A stretch of DNA of 29,371 nucleotides from a virus: positions 1 through 29,371 of the IMG/VR virus record IMGVR_UViG_3300047317_000774. One strand, written 5' to 3'. The position numbers were made by a program, and so were the translations under genes. Under the pieces are notes generated by a model. The model made no database searches. It was not told where the DNA came from and saw only the letters and a program-made list of their open reading frames with translations. Of this stretch, positions 7,457 through 24,167 are shown in pieces. Position 1 is the stretch's first letter. Each line of letters opens with the position of its first letter.

Positions 7457-8384
7457 TGCGCTCTCCCGCTTGGCGCTTGGCCAAGACCATTTGCGCGGCC
7501 TGCTCGGCGGCGGAGACATTCGCTTCAGTGCGCTCCATCTGGCGTGCGGTCGTCCCGTTGATGCGCTGACCAGTCACCCACTGGGTGTGGTAGCTCTCGG
7601 CATTGGCCAGCAGTTCGTTGAGGCTGTGGCACTTGCGCAGGACGCCGGCGTCGCTGGTCTTCAGGTAGTGAGCGGCGACGTGGTGGGCGACATCGGCGCC
7701 GAGCCGGTCGACCAGTTGGCCGAGCTGACCGCCGACCTTGGCGTTCCACACCGGCCAAGCACCGTGGTAGCGCTTGCGGTAGGCCATGGCGTAGTTCGCC
7801 CAGACTTTGAAGGTTTTGCAGGACTGGTCTTTTGGGCCCGGCATGTCAGCGGGAATCTCAACCCGTGGCGTATCGGTGCGATCAACCACCAGCACCAAGT
7901 TGCGGGACTGAGCCGGCACAACCTCGGCGGAAGCCGGGGGTGCAATTGGTTCAATGACCGGTTCATTGACTGGTTCATTGACTGGTTCAGAAGAGTGACT
8001 GGTTCTGGGTGCAGCTCCTGCACTACCCCCTAGTGCAGGAGATTCACTAGGGGGTGAACCTGCTGCACCACCCTGGTGAATCTGCTGCACTACCCCTGGT
8101 GCAGGAGGTGCACCACCATCAAGGGTCAGGAAGTAAACGTTCGACGAGTTGCCCTTCGGCCCACCCTTCCTAATTTCCTTGCGCAGTAGCCCTGACTCAC
8201 ACAGCGCGGTGATGTGGTTCATAACGGAACGCTTGCTAATCTCGCACTGATCGGCGATGTGTTGGTAGGACGGCCAGCACTCCCCCATATCGCTGGCATT
8301 GTCTGCGAGTTTGATGAGTACCAGCTTGCGCAGGGGATTGCCGACGCGAAGTTTCATTGCGGCAACCATCAGGCCCATGCTCAT
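7443..8384 (-). CDS. O-like replication initiator with N-terminal winged helix
   Basis: This 313-residue protein probably binds the phage origin. Residues 8-75 form a winged helix (LRKLVLIKLADNASDMGECWPSYQHIADQCEISKRSVMNHITALCESGLL), as in other phage initiators. Residues 90-150 are a low-complexity Gly/Ala/Pro/Ser linker with tandem EPVN repeats. The C-terminal part (180-313) carries KTFKVWANYAMAYRKRYHGAWP and a helical tail that may contact the helicase loader. The DNA encoding the linker holds two sets of iterons (7944-8112), exactly where lambda O contains its origin. It overlaps the upstream regulator by ATGA (8381-8384). Start at 8384 follows from this coupling. Confidence 0.85.
   Translation of the reverse strand: MSMGLMVAAMKLRVGNPLRKLVLIKLADNASDMGECWPSYQHIADQCEISKRSVMNHITALCESGLLRKEIRKGGPKGNSSNVYFLTLDGGAPPAPGVVQQIHQGGAAGSPPSESPALGGSAGAAPRTSHSSEPVNEPVNEPVIEPIAPPASAEVVPAQSRNLVLVVDRTDTPRVEIPADMPGPKDQSCKTFKVWANYAMAYRKRYHGAWPVWNAKVGGQLGQLVDRLGADVAHHVAAHYLKTSDAGVLRKCHSLNELLANAESYHTQWVTGQRINGTTARQMERTEANVSAAEQAAQMVLAKRQAGERNEYI
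7944..8112. other. Candidate replication origin (iterons inside the O-like gene)
   Basis: Two repeat families lie in the linker-coding part of the initiator. On the left are 12-bp units TTGACTGGTTCA: two exact copies (7966-7977, 7978-7989), one variant (7954-7965) and partial copies at 7944-7953 and 7996-8005. On the right, read on the minus strand, are about five imperfect 20-24-base units of the type GTGCAGCAG-TTCACCAGGGG between 8112 and 8007. The arrangement parallels lambda ori inside O. No long AT-rich unwinding tract was seen beside it. Confidence 0.65.
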
Positions 8385-16029: not shown

Positions 16030-16070
16030 CCCTTCCACAGCGCCCCTCTCCGGTGGCGCGGAGAACAGTC

Positions 16071-16808
16071 ATGTCCGATAAAAACATGCAGATCTGGGAC
16101 AAGGTCAGCACGACCGATACCCGATACACCAAAGCGGCCGAGGTTGGCGGGCAGAAGATCACCAGCCTCAACGGCACCGCGATGATCATGAAAGCGACTG
16201 AGGTTTTCGGCCCGGTCGGCATTGGCTTTGGTTGGTCGATTGTTGAAGAGCGCTTCGATGAGGGCTCGGAAATGGTCAGCGGCGAAGGCGATAAGCGCCT
16301 GGTGCTGGGCCGCGAGCTGAACCACACCATCAAGATTCGCTTCTGGTTTGAGCTGGACGGCAAGCGCGGAGAGATCGAGCAGTACGGCTGCACGCGCTAC
16401 CTCTACAAATCGAAGTTCGGCACCACCACAGACGGGGAAGCGCCGAAGAAGTCGCTGACCGACGCCATCAAGAAATCTCTGTCGATGCTCGGCTTCAGTG
16501 CCGACGTGTTCCTCGGCATGTTCGATGACCACACCTACGTCGAGCAGCTCAAGGAAGAACAAGCAATCGAACTGGCAGTGGACAAGGACGCCGAGATCCT
16601 GCGTCAGAAGCAGGAGCGACTGGAGTGGCTGAACTCGGCTGTGGAAACAATGGGCAAGGCCGTGACGCCCCACGAACTGAAGATGCTGAACGTCAAATAC
16701 ATCCGCGAGGCGACCCGCCGCAACGAGCCGACGTTCATCGCCCGAATCACTCGGGCCTTTGAAGAGCGCAAAGCGGCTTTTGAGCCCGGCAAGGAGAATG
16801 CAGCATGA
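16071..16808 (+). CDS. Putative Rad52-like single-strand annealing protein
   Basis: This 245-residue protein probably anneals complementary single strands in phage recombination. Residues 33-62 form a strand-turn-strand (LNGTAMIMKATEVFGPVGIGFGWSIVEE). The most telling part is residues 124-150 (EAPKKSLTDAIKKSLSMLGFSADVFLG), which matches the Rad52-type signature of a Lys-rich TDA-helix followed by LG. The C-terminal part (160-245) is a charged coil. Its neighbour is Gp157, and NinB and NinG complete a recombination set. The ATG at 16071 is used because the upstream in-frame codons lack an RBS. It could belong to another annealase group; I rate the class as likely, not certain. Confidence 0.68.
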   Translation: MSDKNMQIWDKVSTTDTRYTKAAEVGGQKITSLNGTAMIMKATEVFGPVGIGFGWSIVEERFDEGSEMVSGEGDKRLVLGRELNHTIKIRFWFELDGKRGEIEQYGCTRYLYKSKFGTTTDGEAPKKSLTDAIKKSLSMLGFSADVFLGMFDDHTYVEQLKEEQAIELAVDKDAEILRQKQERLEWLNSAVETMGKAVTPHELKMLNVKYIREATRRNEPTFIARITRAFEERKAAFEPGKENAA

Positions 16809-17375: not shown

Positions 17376-17618
17376 ATGATCAGCAACCACCTCAACCTGG
17401 TCGAGCAGCAGCGACAAAGCGCCGAGGTGATATCGGCGCAAGTCACCCAGTACGTAGCCGCCGGCGGGCGGATCGACCAACTGAAAAGCCCGCCGCACAA
17501 CCCGCTGCCACCGCCCCGCTCCAACAAAATAGACCCTGAAACGGTCCTCAAGCGGCGCCCGAAGCCGATATCGGCGGCCAACCGGAAGGCTCTTCGCAAA
17601 ATGGCGGACTCGATATGA
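17376..17618 (+). CDS. Small phage protein after Gp157
   Basis: An 80-residue basic protein: a helical start (NHLNLVEQQRQSAEVISAQVTQYVAAGGRIDQL), a proline-rich middle (SPPHNPLPPPRSN) and a basic end (RRPKPISAANRKALRKMADSI). The ATG at 17376 follows AGTGAGGCC. It overlaps the next gene by ATGA (17615-17618). It may bind nucleic acid by its tail. Function unknown. Confidence 0.68.
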   Translation: MISNHLNLVEQQRQSAEVISAQVTQYVAAGGRIDQLKSPPHNPLPPPRSNKIDPETVLKRRPKPISAANRKALRKMADSI

Positions 17619-18076
17619 GCAAGCGCAAACCGTGCAATCGTCGGGTGCAGATCGAGCGCAGCATGCGCGCCCTGGTCAACACCCACCACGCAGCTGTGAT
17701 CAACATCGATCCAAGCGGCCTTCAGGTCATGATCAACTGGAAGAACGGCAAGCAGATCCTGTCGAGGGCGGTTTCCGACGCACTCTGCGATGTTGCGCAC
17801 CGCTGGACGATTTACATCGCAGGCATCTGCGTTCGTCAGGACGGCGCCCAATACATCAAGTCGATCGACATCAAGCCCGACGGCGTGCACCTGGTGGAAA
17901 GGCTCTCGGATGTCCTTGAGCATTTCTACGAAGAGGTGATGGCCGACTGCAACCCCAATCACCGCGTCGCCATGGGCTGGCTGGCCGTGCCCGGTGACAG
18001 GCCGGTTCCCGAAGCACAGCTGTCCGCACTACTTGCCTCGGTCGGCGCCTGGAATCAGGTGAAGGTTGCAGCGTGA
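17615..18076 (+). CDS. Phage protein of the recombination operon, unknown
   Basis: A 153-residue alpha/beta protein. A basic N-terminus (KRKPCNRRVQIERSMRALVN) is followed by paired strands (AAVINIDPSGLQVMINWKNG), a helix with conserved-looking Cys and Trp, then a strand pair and the C-terminal segment PNHRVAMGWLAVPGDRPVPEAQ. It is coupled to both neighbours. I do not recognise a family. Confidence 0.75.
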   Translation: MSKRKPCNRRVQIERSMRALVNTHHAAVINIDPSGLQVMINWKNGKQILSRAVSDALCDVAHRWTIYIAGICVRQDGAQYIKSIDIKPDGVHLVERLSDVLEHFYEEVMADCNPNHRVAMGWLAVPGDRPVPEAQLSALLASVGAWNQVKVAA

Positions 18077-18493: not shown

Positions 18494-19396
18494 CTAGTCT
18501 GAATCATCTGAATTTCTTGGTAAAAATGCCGCTTTACCGAACATTTCTAGGTCGTGTTGAAACGCCGCAATGGTTCCAGAAGCAGCTGCTCTCTCGGGGT
18601 TTTTAGCTATAGCTTTTTCAATAACCGCTTGTTGATTTGGATTGATTTCCTTATACAACTGAGAGATCTCCTTTGCCTTGCCGAACATATATTGGGCAAA
18701 ACCCTTCGGCCAATAGTAACTTTGCGGAAAAAGCCTTCCCTCTTTTAGAGAAACGCGACTAGATCTCATCTGCTTTGATTCGCTGTGATTAGCGAGTCCA
18801 AGAAGAATAAACTTCGGCAGTTTGGTATAAACCATGACTTGACCTTCTCCAATCAGCACATCCATGTGCATAGCCCTAAGGAAGTAACGATTTATATTTT
18901 CTGGCAGGCCAACCCCAGCGCTCGCACTATCGATCACGTCCAACGGATAAAGATGCTGTTCGTAGGCGCCGAGATTGCTACTATTCCCGAGAATAAACGA
19001 TGACAACCCTTGCAAAATTGCCATTTCGATCTCGTCAATAGTCTTATCTGATCGTGGGTTAACTGAACGCATATAACTCAATGTTCGCCAGCTAAGAGAT
19101 GCGCAAAATTTTGCCAACCATTCGCCGTAGCGAGCGCTATCCGCCTCATTCTTCACAAACGGATAAAATATTTTGTTTGCAAACTCTCGCTCCCAACCCG
19201 AGAACAGTTGCTCGCACGACTCGCAAAGCCAATAATCTTTAGCTATGTCCTGCGCCCTCTTATTTATATTTTGATTTAACCGTATATACCCTGTTGCTGA
19301 AGAGTCCTTCACCCATTTACCAACGAACTTTGGAATGAAATGACTTAACTTCAACTCCCGATGTTCGCCGCATAGTTTGCAATCCCCTTCGACCAT
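18494..19396 (-). CDS. Cargo: HNH-like zinc protein
   Basis: A 300-residue AT-rich protein inverted against the core operon. The N-terminus has CKLCGEHRELKLSHFIPKFV (Cys6, Cys9, His19) and later WLCESCEQLFSGWEREFANKIF (Cys58, Cys61). Two CxxC pairs with a Ser-His-x-Ile-Pro between them are the mark of an HNH-related zinc fold. The nuclease residues cannot be fixed by eye. The rest is helical with no membrane segment. Proteins of this type are frequent in prophages and defence islands, which makes a nuclease role in defence or exclusion plausible. The start ATG at 19396 has only a weak RBS-like GGGG. I could not find a family name that I trust. Confidence 0.75.
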   Translation of the reverse strand: MVEGDCKLCGEHRELKLSHFIPKFVGKWVKDSSATGYIRLNQNINKRAQDIAKDYWLCESCEQLFSGWEREFANKIFYPFVKNEADSARYGEWLAKFCASLSWRTLSYMRSVNPRSDKTIDEIEMAILQGLSSFILGNSSNLGAYEQHLYPLDVIDSASAGVGLPENINRYFLRAMHMDVLIGEGQVMVYTKLPKFILLGLANHSESKQMRSSRVSLKEGRLFPQSYYWPKGFAQYMFGKAKEISQLYKEINPNQQAVIEKAIAKNPERAAASGTIAAFQHDLEMFGKAAFLPRNSDDSD

Positions 19397-19493
19397 TAAA
19401 ACACCCCGTTTTTTTTCAAAACAATACCTTTTAATACCCCACTTCTACGAATCACGCCAGCCGGCGAGGCAGGCGTATGCCTGGAGAATGCTT

Positions 19494-19908: not shown

Positions 19909-20736
19909 TCACGGAGCTCGATACGGAATTGAAGATTTGATCACATCAATTTTATGTTTAAAGTTATGAATCGTCACTTCACGCTTTAAATGCAACTTTT
20001 CTACAAAAGCTTTCATAGAGATGTAAGCAAGTTCCTGGTCGCGCATTGGCCCGATATGAATTGCTCGAATACTTTCGAAGGGTAAATCGGCCTTAACATA
20101 AGGAATGAGAATATTTCCTCTGGTTCGAAACTCAACATCAAGTCCGTTTTCAATTTCAGGATCAATGTCGTGCCCAAGGATAACCCTTACCTCCTGTTCC
20201 TCTGAAAAACTCTCATGCTTAAATGTGGCAACCAACCCAATGATCTCGGAGAAAGCTTCATAACCTTCTTGGTCCAAAAATCCAGAGTTGATCGACATAT
20301 CTTTCGCGATAGTAATCAAACTTGAAAGCACTTTATCAGATGCCTGATCCAACTTTATATCATCGTCATATACACACCTAAAAAGCCCCTGAGGAACATA
20401 ATCGGCATCGAACTCAATGGAGTATGAACCGTAGGCCCTCCACTGGCTTAAAAGATCACCCTCCTGAGTAAACGATCCTATAAAAATTGGCCGATTATCT
20501 ATTCCGTAACCAGCTTTTCCAACAAGACCACTCTCGACATAGTTAGCCGCATCCTCAAAAAACTCGTGCGGATGTGGGAAATTTGCCACTCGATGCCTCA
20601 TATATTCCACAAGCATGGAGATTCCATTGTGCATCTCTTCTGAGTCATTCAGATAGCGAACGTCGGTCAACCACATCTTTTCATGCTCAAGAATCGACTT
20701 AACCGCAGTTACATCGGTGTAGTGAAAGATTTTCAA
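19909..20736 (-). CDS. Cargo: DUF2971 protein
   Basis: The 275-residue protein shows the DUF2971 pattern: an opening FHYTDVTAVKSILEHEKMWLTDVRYLNDSEE (Tyr-Thr and Leu-Asn-Asp), then PIFIGSFTQEGDLLSQWRAYGSYSIEFDADY, and later HESFSEEQEVRVILG (Glu-x-x-x-Arg). Members of the family occur as cargo in prophages and islands. The biochemical activity is not known to me. AT-rich base use and the opposite strand separate it from its neighbours. Translation starts at a TTG at 20736 with GGATGG upstream; the first in-frame ATG would remove the conserved HYT part, so TTG is preferred. It is divergent from the methyltransferase remnant. Confidence 0.85.
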   Translation of the reverse strand: MKIFHYTDVTAVKSILEHEKMWLTDVRYLNDSEEMHNGISMLVEYMRHRVANFPHPHEFFEDAANYVESGLVGKAGYGIDNRPIFIGSFTQEGDLLSQWRAYGSYSIEFDADYVPQGLFRCVYDDDIKLDQASDKVLSSLITIAKDMSINSGFLDQEGYEAFSEIIGLVATFKHESFSEEQEVRVILGHDIDPEIENGLDVEFRTRGNILIPYVKADLPFESIRAIHIGPMRDQELAYISMKAFVEKLHLKREVTIHNFKHKIDVIKSSIPYRAP

Positions 20737-20787
20737 GTTATGCCATCCATGATTTTAATCAAACCAATATACCGGCGAGAAGCCATC

Positions 20788-20940
20788 ATGCCCACCACCT
20801 ACGAAAGCGTGTGCAGCGGCATAGAAGCCGCGACACAGCCCTGGCACTCGCTTGGCATGCGCGCCGCCTGCTTCGCCGAGATTGAGCCAGCATTTCGCTA
20901 TTGCGTCATCCGCCCGGGCGAGCGAGCATTGACCATCTGA
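20788..20940 (+). pseudogene. Remnant of a phage cytosine-C5 methyltransferase
   Basis: Fifty codons start MPTTYESVCSGIEAATQPWHSLGMRAACFAEIEP, the N-terminus and S-adenosylmethionine motif I region of phage DNA cytosine methyltransferases. After the EP pair the sequence departs from the family (no further motifs, no Pro-Cys catalytic motif) and stops at 20938-20940. The stop overlaps the ATG of the nuclease gene (TGATG). The end of the homology marks a recombination point near 20890, where the rest of the methyltransferase was exchanged for the nuclease. The peptide may still be translated and may serve only to couple translation. Confidence 0.85.
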
Positions 20941-22070
20941 TGAATGCTGCTGCCCACAAGGACGTTTCTTTGAAAATCCCCGCGGTAAAAAAAGAAAAGC
21001 TAGACCAAGCTCTAAAACAGTTCGATGAGAAGTTTCGCCGCGCCCCCGAGTGGAAAGGCTGGACTGAAAACCAAGCGCATCGCTACGCAATCAGCGCGAA
21101 CAGCACTTTATACCCTGCAAAAAAAATAGTTTCTTTGGCCACTGGAACCCCGGTAGGACTGTTTTCAGGTGGTCAGCCCACCAACGGATATTTGAAGCGG
21201 CACGGGTTCACAATCGTTGAGCTGCAACGGTCAACTGATCAAGAGCTGCGCTTTGTGGCGGGTCAGGTTTATGACCGGCAAACTGAGATTCACGATTTGT
21301 TCGGAGGCAGTCACCAGAGCGGAATTGCTCCCTCAGCGCAGGCCCCAGCGGTATTCATTTTCACCGGCGACTCAGGTGGTCAGTACGGATACACCGACTC
21401 TCATAGCGAAGAGCAAGTTTTCAGCTACACAGGCGAAGGCCAGGTCGGTGATATGACTCTGACTAAAGGAAACCTGGCAATTCTCGAGCATTCGAAGCAG
21501 GGGAAAGCGCTGCATGTTTTCGAGATACTCGGCAAAAGTTTAGGCCAGAAGTACCTCGGTGAATACACGTGTGCGAGCCATGAATGGCGCCGCGGCCCTG
21601 ACAAGTTTGGCAACGACAGGGCAATAGTTGTTTTCAACCTAGTCCCTGTAGGGCTCGAGCTCGACTCCCCTATGTTCTCAGGAGAAGACGAAGCTCCAGA
21701 TCCAACTATGTCACTTGCCGAGGCGAGAAAGCGCGCTCTTGCGGCTGCGGAAGCAGGATCTGCTGGAGAAAGTGGGTCGGCACGCAGAACCGTATATCGT
21801 CGCAGCAGAACTATCTCCAATTACGTTTTAAAGAGAGCCGCCGGAAACTGTGAAAGCTGTAAGAAAGCGGCCCCTTTCATGAAGACAAACGGCTCACCAT
21901 ACCTAGAGCCGCACCACGTGAATCGATTATCGGATGGCGGCCTAGACCATCCACGTTACATAGGTGCCATCTGCCCCGCCTGCCATCGCGAAATTCACCA
22001 CGGGCTGCACGGAATGGTGAAGAACGAAGCGTTGAAGACTTACGTGGCCAGTATTGAGCCGAAGTCGTAA
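20940..22070 (+). CDS. SRA-HNH modification-dependent endonuclease (type IV, McrA-like)
   Basis: The 376-residue protein has three parts. Residues 12-96 look like the N-terminal domain seen in some McrA-type enzymes (STLYPAKKIVSLATG, then FSGGQPTNGYLKRHGF). Residues 105-238 form an SRA/YDG domain, with GQVYDRQTEIHDLFGG, a GGQYGY turn, GDMTLTKGNLAI and HEWRRGPD, which in this class flips out 5-methyl- or 5-hydroxymethylcytosine. Residues 290-376 are an HNH nuclease with Cys304, Cys307, EPHH at 324-327, Cys345, Cys348 and His349/His353. Such enzymes cut modified DNA, for example DNA of phages with modified cytosine. The ATG at 20940 overlaps the remnant's stop. Confidence 0.87.
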   Translation: MNAAAHKDVSLKIPAVKKEKLDQALKQFDEKFRRAPEWKGWTENQAHRYAISANSTLYPAKKIVSLATGTPVGLFSGGQPTNGYLKRHGFTIVELQRSTDQELRFVAGQVYDRQTEIHDLFGGSHQSGIAPSAQAPAVFIFTGDSGGQYGYTDSHSEEQVFSYTGEGQVGDMTLTKGNLAILEHSKQGKALHVFEILGKSLGQKYLGEYTCASHEWRRGPDKFGNDRAIVVFNLVPVGLELDSPMFSGEDEAPDPTMSLAEARKRALAAAEAGSAGESGSARRTVYRRSRTISNYVLKRAAGNCESCKKAAPFMKTNGSPYLEPHHVNRLSDGGLDHPRYIGAICPACHREIHHGLHGMVKNEALKTYVASIEPKS

Positions 22071-22119
22071 GTATTTCGTATACGCGGTGCGGCGCGCAGC
22101 CTCACCGGCCGTACATAAC

Positions 22120-22371
22120 TCACGCTATCAACTGGTGGAAGGTTGCTCCGATCCGGTCGATCGCCGCAACACTACCTGATTTTGAATGGACCGCAATAAA
22201 ATGCCGCACACGCTCAACATTGAACCGTAGTTTCGACTGTTCCATCTCTCGAAGCAGCGTACGATTGACTGAGTAGAACCCACAGTCCGGGCATTTGAAG
22301 TCAACAAAGTGTCCAACCTGATAACCCTCCTCAGCTTGTCCCCTACATATAACGCAGACAGTAACGCCCAT
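22120..22371 (-). CDS. Cargo: small zinc-ribbon protein
   Basis: An 83-residue protein, MGVTVCVICRGQAEEGYQVGHFVDFKCPDCGFYSVN. Two CxxC pairs (Cys6/Cys9 and Cys28/Cys31) make a zinc ribbon, and the rest is a basic helical part. The start at 22371 is set by AGGAG 6 bases upstream; longer frames enter the neighbour's intergenic region. It converges with the SRA-HNH gene, 49 bases away. The reader-like zinc ribbon beside a nuclease is suggestive but no partnership can be shown. Function unknown. Confidence 0.72.
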   Translation of the reverse strand: MGVTVCVICRGQAEEGYQVGHFVDFKCPDCGFYSVNRTLLREMEQSKLRFNVERVRHFIAVHSKSGSVAAIDRIGATFHQLIA

Positions 22372-22520
22372 ACCAATCTCCTTTGGCTGATCGCTGAACT
22401 GTAGCTGATCTCTTACTAACCTCCACCGTCCGGGCATGCCCCGGCATGGAACACGCATCTATCAGCAGGCTCAGGACTACACCGACACCCATTTCTACAT
22501 GCTCACCAATCACAAAGAGG

Positions 22521-23483
22521 TCATTGCTTTTTTTCTGGTGATTGATCACCCAAAGCACCAACCCCCATCTCGATATACATTGCGTCCAAATGCTCTCTAT
22601 GAAGCTGCAGGCACATGCCCCTGACATATGTGTCAACATCAGAAAAAAGTTTCCAATGTTCATCAAACTCTATTGTATACGGTCCAAAATCATGAACATA
22701 GGGATAAATGCCGTGAATGTAAACATACTCAGGAAGAGAGGAATTGTCAGACGGCCAAACATATCGTCTGTATATCTTCGCATCATCAATTGATATCGGT
22801 TCTAAAGGAGGCCTCTTGAGTTCAGCATTGCTTCCAACAGTTTGAGCGTGAGGAACTACCGAGCCGAGCACCCTCGGAAGATCCTGTCGAATCAGTCCAA
22901 GTAAATCGCGCTTACCTCTAAGGACCTGCACTACATCAGACTGAGAGTGCCCTCCTCTTTCAATCCACTTAGGGATAAGAGAGGCTACGTAAGCCCCAAA
23001 AGAAACCGAATCTTTCAATATGCTGAGAGAGCGAGCTGCGGCTGGCGACAGCTCTGCCAATGGAACCTGATCAAGCTGGTTTAAAAGCTTTTGCCAGTCA
23101 CGCCCCTTATGAAAGCCTTGATATGCAAACATATTGCTTTCTTCTTTTTCGGGCTGATAAAAAACATTGGTCAGCGTCCACAATGACTCCATTGAATCAT
23201 CTGCGATGACTCCCATAATCCCAAGTAATGTTTGAAGCCTACGTGCCGAAGCTACCTTGGCATGCCAAAATGGGATATATGCTGCAGCAACTATAGCTAA
23301 AATTGAGCCAACTGCCTGCACCCAACTCGCCAACTCGCCGCTATTCGGCTTAAATAATAAAAACAAAATTACAACTAATGAAACGGCCGTCACGCAATTT
23401 GGTAGCGATAGCTCTAGCTTGAAAAACTTTTCCCTGTTTTTTGTACTCATGCTCAGCCACAAACAATAAAGATTAAACTTCAT
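22521..23483 (-). CDS. Cargo: two-helix membrane protein with large cytoplasmic part
   Basis: A 320-residue AT-rich protein with two membrane helices near the start (residues 29-45, VTAVSLVVILFLLF, and 55-73, VQAVGSILAIVAAAYIPFW) joined by a short loop. About 240 soluble residues follow: a helical middle, a long LRGKRDLLGLIRQDLPRVLG segment, and an aromatic end (YVYIHGIYPYVHDFGPYTIEFDEHW). The layout, a membrane hairpin carrying a large sensor-like domain, is seen in abortive-infection effectors, but no family match is claimed. An ATG 11 codons later is also possible. It is divergent from the core gene at 23505 across 21 bases. Confidence 0.78.
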   Translation of the reverse strand: MKFNLYCLWLSMSTKNREKFFKLELSLPNCVTAVSLVVILFLLFKPNSGELASWVQAVGSILAIVAAAYIPFWHAKVASARRLQTLLGIMGVIADDSMESLWTLTNVFYQPEKEESNMFAYQGFHKGRDWQKLLNQLDQVPLAELSPAAARSLSILKDSVSFGAYVASLIPKWIERGGHSQSDVVQVLRGKRDLLGLIRQDLPRVLGSVVPHAQTVGSNAELKRPPLEPISIDDAKIYRRYVWPSDNSSLPEYVYIHGIYPYVHDFGPYTIEFDEHWKLFSDVDTYVRGMCLQLHREHLDAMYIEMGVGALGDQSPEKKQ

Positions 23484-23504: not shown

Positions 23505-24167
23505 ATGCCCACAGAAAACAAAACGGCCGAGCCGCTGAAGGTTGAGCGCTCGACTGTGACCAAGCTAGTGATCACCGGCGCGCCGCGTCTCGACGCGATT
23601 ACAGTGTTTCTCGAGGACTTCGGCCGCCGCGACTGCCCAAATGAATCCGACCCGAGCTATCAGACCGCCCAGGGCAAGATCACGATCAACTGCTGGGACA
23701 AGAGTTGGAACGCCTACTGGGGTGGCATGGGACCTCGCACGGTGGCCGAGTTCGTGGCCGATTGTGATTGGCACTACATCCTGAACTGCCTGGATCGCGG
23801 GATCAGCAGCACGCGGTTCAGCGGGAACGCGCTTCACGCATTCGCGAAAAAGTGCATTATCCAGCGCCGCCGGCGGCAGACCGGCCGTCACGACTGGGAG
23901 CTGGACGAGCTGAGCAAAGGTGAGGCCCGTGAGCTTTGGCACGACATCGATGTTCTGCGAAGCGTCGAGTCACCAAACGAATGCTGGCATCACAGCAAGT
24001 TGCTGACTGAGCTTTTCGGTGATGAGTGGCACTACCCCGTCGGCGACAAGGCCGTCGAGGAAAACCACGAATTCACGTACCTGCAGCGCGTTGTCGAGGC
24101 AGTTCAGGAAGCACTTCGTGAGCAGAACCGATTGGTGAATGACGAGCCGCCAACGCTGGAAGGCTGA
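23505..24167 (+). CDS. Core phage protein of the early operon
   Basis: A 220-residue protein with the pattern LDAITVFLEDFG then GKITINCWDKSWNAYWGGMGPRTVAEFVADCDWHYIL, which recurs in early-operon proteins of many phages of enterobacteria and pseudomonads (function unknown). The central basic helix (AKKCIIQRRRRQTGRHDWELDELSKGEARELWHDI) and C-terminal coil follow. GC content agrees with core genes. The start has AGCAGGTATCCCC before the ATG. It is followed by an inverted cargo gene. Confidence 0.82.
   Translation: MPTENKTAEPLKVERSTVTKLVITGAPRLDAITVFLEDFGRRDCPNESDPSYQTAQGKITINCWDKSWNAYWGGMGPRTVAEFVADCDWHYILNCLDRGISSTRFSGNALHAFAKKCIIQRRRRQTGRHDWELDELSKGEARELWHDIDVLRSVESPNECWHHSKLLTELFGDEWHYPVGDKAVEENHEFTYLQRVVEAVQEALREQNRLVNDEPPTLEG

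Follow-up and report, generated by a model that had tools for sequence, protein, structure and literature searches.

Phages use DNA methylation against restriction, and Type IV nucleases punish methylation. A conflict between a C5-cytosine methyltransferase (MTase) and a methylation-dependent HNH nuclease has been reported for PcaRCI and PcaRCII, where the nuclease gene is silenced by methylation (PMC8989522), and conflict between a methyl-specific nuclease and an MTase has also been described in PMC2614495. TagI, in which an SRA domain is followed by an HNH domain, has been reported to cut DNA carrying 5mC or 5hmC (PMC6212794). A Type IV precedent on a prophage-like element is McrA of E. coli K-12 (EcoKMcrA), which is located on e14 (PMC12707154) and senses modified DNA via an N-terminal NEco domain and not via SRA (PMC7145662). 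In the archaeal virus enzyme HHPV4I, which has the order SRA-wH-HNH, cleavage has been reported to be m6A-dependent through the wH domain, the SRA domain not being needed (PMC10101028).

The window analysed here is the whole of an IMG/VR virus record of 29,371 bases, which may be a phage fragment; it appears to be a phage or prophage of a type found in Pseudomonas genomes, with Pseudomonas as the host. It encodes a predicted nuclease that shares with ScoMcrA, a Type IV enzyme of SBD-SRA-HNH architecture (PDB 5zmm and 5zmn), the order of N-terminal domain, SRA and HNH, but has about 100 residues before the SRA domain where ScoMcrA has about 256, which leaves no room for a sulfur-binding domain. 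As in TagI, SRA precedes HNH and aromatic and acidic residues are conserved at pocket positions; unlike TagI, the window nuclease has an extra N-terminal domain, the two are 21% identical over the SRA domain, and activity is predicted here. The HNH domain is 36% identical to that of EcoKMcrA over 86 residues and both enzymes are carried on prophage-like elements, but sensing in EcoKMcrA is by NEco whereas the window nuclease has SRA. HHPV4I is likewise a virus-encoded modification-dependent nuclease with SRA and HNH domains (predicted here), but it recognizes m6A via wH, and MTase remnants flank the window nuclease while the account of HHPV4I consulted describes none. As with PcaRCI and PcaRCII, a C5 MTase is set against an HNH nuclease, but here it is the MTase genes that have disappeared from the locus of the nuclease. 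A literature search retrieved no published description of this exchange between MTase and nuclease. The explanation that we favour, with a probability of roughly 0.72, is that an SRA-HNH Type IV nuclease replaced C5 MTase genes at a variable slot, leaving stubs of them behind, and that the predicted activity of this enzyme protects the lysogen from modified DNA.

The nuclease and the methyltransferase remnant in the window

The features of the locus, in window coordinates, are as follows.
17615..18076, plus strand: phrog_5434, a conserved phage gene upstream of the slot; marks the variable locus on the left
20763..20787, plus strand: spacer and ribosome-binding stretch before the MTase A start, common to phages with an intact MTase A
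20788..20889, plus strand: C5-cytosine MTase A remnant, codons 1-34, delimited by 85% amino acid identity and the end of DNA homology
20788..20940, plus strand: open frame of the remnant, 50 codons, the last 16 mostly nuclease leader and not MTase
20890..20939, plus strand: junction, with the nuclease's native 5' leader, a shared block from about 20898
20940..22070, plus strand: predicted modification-dependent endonuclease (N-terminal domain, SRA, HNH), 376 aa
20979..21224, plus strand: N-terminal domain, residues about 14-95 (own AlphaFold2 model, Foldseek)
21240..21656, plus strand: SRA domain, residues 101-239 (VIA-align, conservation)
21792..22004, plus strand: HNH nuclease domain, residues 285-355 (VIA-align, conservation)
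22071..22458, minus strand: ORF 22120-22458 with spacer, in the place of the MTase C-terminal stub of most relatives
23505..24167, plus strand: phrog_3451, a phage gene downstream of the slot; marks the variable locus on the right in some relatives

The preliminary description had proposed that the first 34 codons of a phage cytosine MTase remain in front of the nuclease, and this was borne out. Codons 1-34 share 85% amino acid identity (E 8e-12) with the intact MTase of relative L128, and comparison with relatives carrying an intact MTase A, which had been suggested as a way to find the breakpoint, places the last homologous base at 20888/20889. On the left, blastn homology to L128, L130 and L133 starts at 20763-20765, and L128 and L140 have similar sequence ahead of the ATG. 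The MTase body was not found, with 0 matches to PF00145 in the 29,371-base record, itself possibly a phage fragment, and the PC and ENV catalytic motifs of C5-cytosine MTases (PF00145) are absent from the stub, which ends at codon 34. Codons 35-50 of the remnant frame are mostly nuclease leader, since homology to the window begins at 20898 in L010 and L012, where no left stub is detectable; this leader can also be recognized, by eye, in L014 and L015, again without a left MTase stub.

The TGA of the remnant (20938-20940) is overlapped by the ATG of the nuclease (20940-20942), as had been noted, but the overlap is a feature of the window, L005 and L006 and is not conserved. In an alignment of 14 stubs, including that of the window and omitting L019 as too decayed, four (window, L005, L006 and L008) combine a start codon with an open frame, eight are broken by stops or frameshifts, and two (L002 and L016) have lost their ATG. 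Judged on these sequences, the left stub is a pseudogene, a remnant only. By comparison, dN/dS of the nuclease against the window is 0.07-0.20 in pairs with usable dS, indicating strong purifying selection; taken with the open frame in only 4/14 stubs, this shows that the nuclease has been kept and the stub peptide has not.

Pfam scores for the nuclease are weak (SAD_SRA 21.3 bits and HNH 19.5 bits, both under the curated cut-offs), NCBIfam gave nothing over its cut-off, and PADLOC called a Type IV enzyme on the HNH end only, but both domains are clear by structure. An AlphaFold2 model built from a 55-sequence alignment (pLDDT 83.1) aligned in VIA-align over its SRA domain with the ScoMcrA SBD-SRA chain (5zmn; Z 13.9), the SUVH5 SRA domain with methylated DNA (Z 13.4) and TagI (Z 11.8), and over its HNH domain with EcoKMcrA (Z 9.9). 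Modelled alone, the N-terminal domain (pLDDT 81.7) had chains of 5zmm (ScoMcrA) as its top Foldseek matches (E 6e-3, probability 1.00, TMq 0.59), and given the domain order we read it as the N-terminal domain of ScoMcrA. A sulfur-binding domain before the SRA domain was not found in the window nuclease, where the N-terminal domain fills the available residues; in phmmer, residue 101 pairs with ScoMcrA residue 257.

In the SRA domain, Y151, D153, Y163, G165, E166 and G167 are invariant across the 55 sequences and appear to occupy the positions of the flipped-base pocket of TagI and UHRF1, which has been reported to consist of aromatic walls and a carboxylate (PMC6212794). An SRA domain with a flipped-base pocket and a C-terminal HNH domain, two features of SRA-HNH modification-dependent restriction endonucleases, are both found here. 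In the HNH domain of the same 55 sequences, H325/H326, H349, H353 and C304 are invariant, and C307, C345 and C348 are present in at least 90%; we take the histidines to be of the catalytic type and the pairs C304/C307 and C345/C348 to be zinc-type cysteines. The locus adds a predicted prophage-borne family of enzymes with an N-terminal domain, SRA and HNH for testing.

Methyltransferase stubs around the nuclease in related phages

In sister phages, the interval between phrog_5434 and phrog_3451 is occupied either by MTase A, of about 310-580 aa, or by a different enzyme of about 690 aa, MTase B. A search for MTase sequence within 600 nt of the nuclease (E 1e-3) in 22 close relatives, the window included, found at least one stub in 18; 15 relatives have a left stub, 12 a right stub and 9 both, in agreement with the earlier proposal that an SRA-HNH enzyme replaced the rest of an MTase. 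The left stub is the N-terminus of MTase A, ending in most loci about 50 nt before the nuclease start; it was absent at this threshold in L010-L012, L014, L015, L045 and L046. The right stub is MTase B in 10/22 (L004, L006-L010, L013, L016, L045 and L365; the last 25-94 codons), and in L012 and L019 it comprises the 38 C-terminal codons of MTase A. The same search beside 22 nucleases with 48-58% identity, from genomes of the same genus as Pseudomonas fluorescens genome G060, found stubs in none (0/22; Fisher 1e-8 versus the close relatives). Moreover, in a second nuclease lineage (L017, L018 and L054) the last ~24 codons of an MTase A directly follow the nuclease.

The left junction is nearly constant, at MTase codons 30-36 save in the decayed L013 and L019, and the right junction is variable. 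No right stub was found in the window, L001-L003, L005 and L366, while L365, nested among them in the tree, has one. Homology to the window on this side extends to about 22450 in L001, L003, L005 and L366 and runs past 24100, neighbouring genes included, in L002; where the MTase B stub has been kept, it stops at 22066-22071 in the nine relatives examined. The left junction recurs even where nuclease identity is down to about 76% (L008). Both MTase types have been displaced, since the right stub is usually MTase B and the left MTase A. The displacement therefore looks old, ancestral to the clade and inclusive of both MTase types, and the recent one-step swap in this phage that had first been envisaged is not supported. 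A locus in which one side of a conflict has physically replaced the other, with the stubs of the losers flanking it, is a natural record of that conflict and offers a way to date and count switches.

On the replacement reading, the SRA-HNH nuclease would have taken the place of C5-cytosine MTase genes in a variable slot between conserved phage genes, probably by gene exchange via short homology, with the first ~34 codons of MTase A staying on the left and the C-terminus of MTase B (or A) on the right; in the window's own line the right stub would have been lost later. The lysogen would make the nuclease, whose SRA domain would bind 5mC or 5hmC on phage or plasmid DNA entering the cell and whose HNH domain would then cut nearby, as in TagI. 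The nuclease should spare the prophage, because the prophage's own cytosine MTases are gone. Activity, substrate and a role in defence of the lysogen are what we infer from the modelled fold, and the presence of an SRA domain is not proof of 5mC dependence, since in HHPV4I the SRA domain is not needed and the target is m6A.

The most serious competing explanation is ordinary cargo mosaicism, in which the MTase had decayed to a pseudogene beforehand, or any cargo can enter the slot, so that loss of methylation and gain of the nuclease have no functional link. This is quite possible, if on balance doubtful. MTase A has decayed without a nuclease in L173 and in L227, where a decayed MTase A lies upstream of an intact MTase B, so the gene may already have been defunct when the nuclease arrived; at 35 of 80 loci anchored on phrog_5434, the MTase A or B sequence found amounts to less than 200 aa and there is no nuclease, partly because contigs end; and L014 and L015 have the nuclease in the vicinity of the same phage genes but lack any MTase stub. 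Against a purely fortuitous succession, MTases A and B are both missing or stubs in the examined nuclease-bearing phages, the second nuclease lineage also lies directly before a C-terminal stub of MTase A, and broken nucleases occur together with MTases in 8/8 genomes, as described below.

The L173 record holds two MTase A copies, the second of which (7845-8056) has been reduced to a fusion of codons 1-36 with codons 517-551 and contains no cargo at the junction.

HNH domains also occur in homing endonucleases, and a free-standing enzyme of this kind spreading into MTase genes, not a restriction enzyme, could account for L019, in which the nuclease lies inside MTase A sequence with an A stub on both sides. 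We consider this highly improbable, as the centre of the MTase is missing, and has thus been replaced rather than interrupted; the clade of 48-58% identity does not adjoin MTase sequence, the SRA-HNH architecture is that of the restriction enzymes TagI and ScoMcrA, and the right junctions vary widely. A last alternative is that the 34-codon peptide works with the nuclease as a conserved partner, which the preliminary description had named among the findings that would overturn its interpretation, or serves it as a leader for translational coupling. This would fit the left stub in 15/22 loci, mostly ending about 50 nt upstream, and the stop/start overlap in the window, L005 and L006, but is largely refuted and can be rejected, as the frame is broken or startless in 10/14 and, at E 1e-3, no left stub accompanies the nuclease in 7 close relatives or any stub in the 22 nucleases that are 48-58% identical.

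Co-occurrence of the nuclease with cytosine methyltransferases

The preliminary description had held the nuclease and self-modification to be incompatible. Among 19 phage records with the nuclease, none had an intact C5 MTase and 4 had stubs only (1/19, a 100-aa stub frame, when counted like for like by cut-off); none was found in 25 further, more distant nuclease-bearing viral records either (44 in all). By comparison, a C5 MTase match over the cut-off was found in 27/40 nuclease-free relatives (Fisher 4e-7 versus 0/19), which had been hand-picked from 80, mostly as longer loci, after the slot contents were known. A recount over all 80, taking MTase A or B of at least 200 aa, gave 26/40 for the chosen loci and 19/40 for the others, so the choice raised the comparison rate somewhat and 45/80 is the fairer figure. 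The 80 were drawn from 98 loci anchored on phrog_5434, and as none of them carried the nuclease the sample served only as the nuclease-minus comparison. The exclusion in phage records is partly trivial, because both genes use one slot; moreover, these records may be incomplete, and those that are related do not count as independent observations.

Whole genomes give a less strict picture. Of 29 Pseudomonadaceae genomes whose nuclease is intact, 12 had a C5 MTase match beyond a stub, one of the 12 (G486) with an internal stop; G188 and G196 had only partial matches, the matches in G328 and G361 cover the Pfam model partially, in open frames of 652 and 654 aa, and G152 combines a nuclease with 97% identity and an open MTase B frame. 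The 29 genomes comprise 26 from a draw of 398 and, in addition, G061, G063 and G064. Within the draw, 11/26 genomes with an intact nuclease had a C5 MTase, against a genus base rate of 132/199 (p 0.028; 13/26 and p 0.13 with partial matches counted). As a strict rule, the claimed incompatibility fails, given these 12/29 genomes. Full-length MTase A was found in none of the intact-nuclease genomes examined for it (G188 has a C-terminal part and G361 a stub only), which says nothing firm about exclusion of MTase A specifically, as its base rate is only 29/398. No C5 MTase match was found in 9 genomes outside Pseudomonadaceae that match the nuclease, counted irrespective of its integrity.

All eight genomes with a disrupted nuclease (G062, G065, G134, G151, G274, G344, G416 and G484) had a C5 MTase match, versus 12/29 with an intact one, in a comparison made post hoc (Fisher 0.004); the draw alone gave 6/6 versus 11/26 (p 0.019), or 6/6 versus 13/26 (p 0.059) if stubs are counted as MTases. 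Five genomes (G061-G065) were added to this count, and eight of 40 genomes (G116, G161, G171, G320, G348, G420, G425 and G462) were left out of it, as their match, at 29-43% identity, is confined to SRA plus HNH or to HNH alone; G075 (39%, no MTase match) was also left out, G151 (43%, with the N-terminal domain) was kept as broken, and G486 (SRA-HNH part only, 56%) was kept as intact. The broken-nuclease pattern, though post hoc, suggests a conflict, perhaps dependent on the sites that the MTase methylates. Taken together, the earlier interpretation is partly supported: it was right in outline, with an old, clade-wide displacement of two MTases and an incompatibility that is partial.

In L394, the nuclease locus of G151, the HNH domain is cut by what by eye is an IS3-type transposase-like gene, and this genome has C5 MTase matches.

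Stub divergence and possible exchange at the slot

Divergence of stub and nuclease was compared over 91 pairs, two near-identical pairs being set aside. From the near to the far bins, mean four-fold divergence of the nuclease rose from 0.125 to 0.605, and mean stub divergence only from 0.17 to 0.28. Where four-fold divergence exceeded 0.35, the stub was the less diverged in 35/35 pairs, which are not independent of one another; in the nearest bin, the stub was more diverged than the four-fold sites of the nuclease. Stub divergence thus stays, unexpectedly, near that among intact MTase A alleles, whose starts differ from one another by about 0.20 (869+779+2317 differences, 190 pairs, up to 102 nt). 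Divergence of the 50-nt nuclease leader, likewise non-coding, reaches 0.31, so constraint on the short upstream DNA is a possible contributor. Stub and nuclease distances are correlated (Mantel r 0.65, p 0.004, n 14), which favours common descent with some later exchange over exchange alone. These comparisons hint that the stubs may still recombine, occasionally and on top of common descent, with MTase A genes of other phages.

A stronger version of this proposal is that the stubs serve as recombination arms, with MTase-bearing and nuclease-bearing phages exchanging the body of the slot via shared sequence at the MTase A 5' end and the MTase B 3' end and so toggling between methylation and cutting. 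We regard this as unlikely; if it were true, opposite strategies could be switched in one exchange. Left homology edges fall inside the stub in L002-L004, L006, L007 and L009, and the window encodes a candidate Rad52-type annealase at 16053-16808 (Pfam Rad52 match below cut-off; the PHROG annotation is exonuclease). Phage Rad52-like recombinases, among them the predicted Erf of Pseudomonas phage D3, have been associated with mosaicism and reported to act on short, diverged sequences (PMC3945230); the exchange considered here would be of the same kind, but that account, in the parts drawn on, does not apply it to MTase or nuclease slots. Direct repeats in the window between 17500 and 25500 amounted to 7 two-copy families, a chance-like number.

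Of 77 MTase A starts, 8 have a linker of the ACGAATCACGCCAG type ahead of them, as do 13 of 71 starts of MTase B, which is suggestive only. A ~25-30 nt linker, ACGAATCACGCCAGCCGGCGAGG, occurs in the window at 19433-19475 and also upstream of MTase A or B in L131, L135, L213, L218 and L226; the cargo genes that immediately follow it are unrelated from phage to phage, which gives it the look of a common gene-exchange boundary.

Three further genes near the nuclease are on the minus strand. Between the nuclease and phrog_3451, 22521-23483 encodes a 320-aa protein with no confident family match, on the strand opposite to these two genes. Directly left of the MTase stub, 19909-20736 encodes a DUF2971 protein (24.5 bits, over the Pfam cut-off; phrog_1762), which had no PADLOC match and is possibly another defence cargo gene. 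The gene at 18494-19396, opposite in strand to its phage neighbours, encodes a 300-aa protein with an N-terminal CxxC motif (phrog_26326) and is likely another cargo gene of the same variable region.
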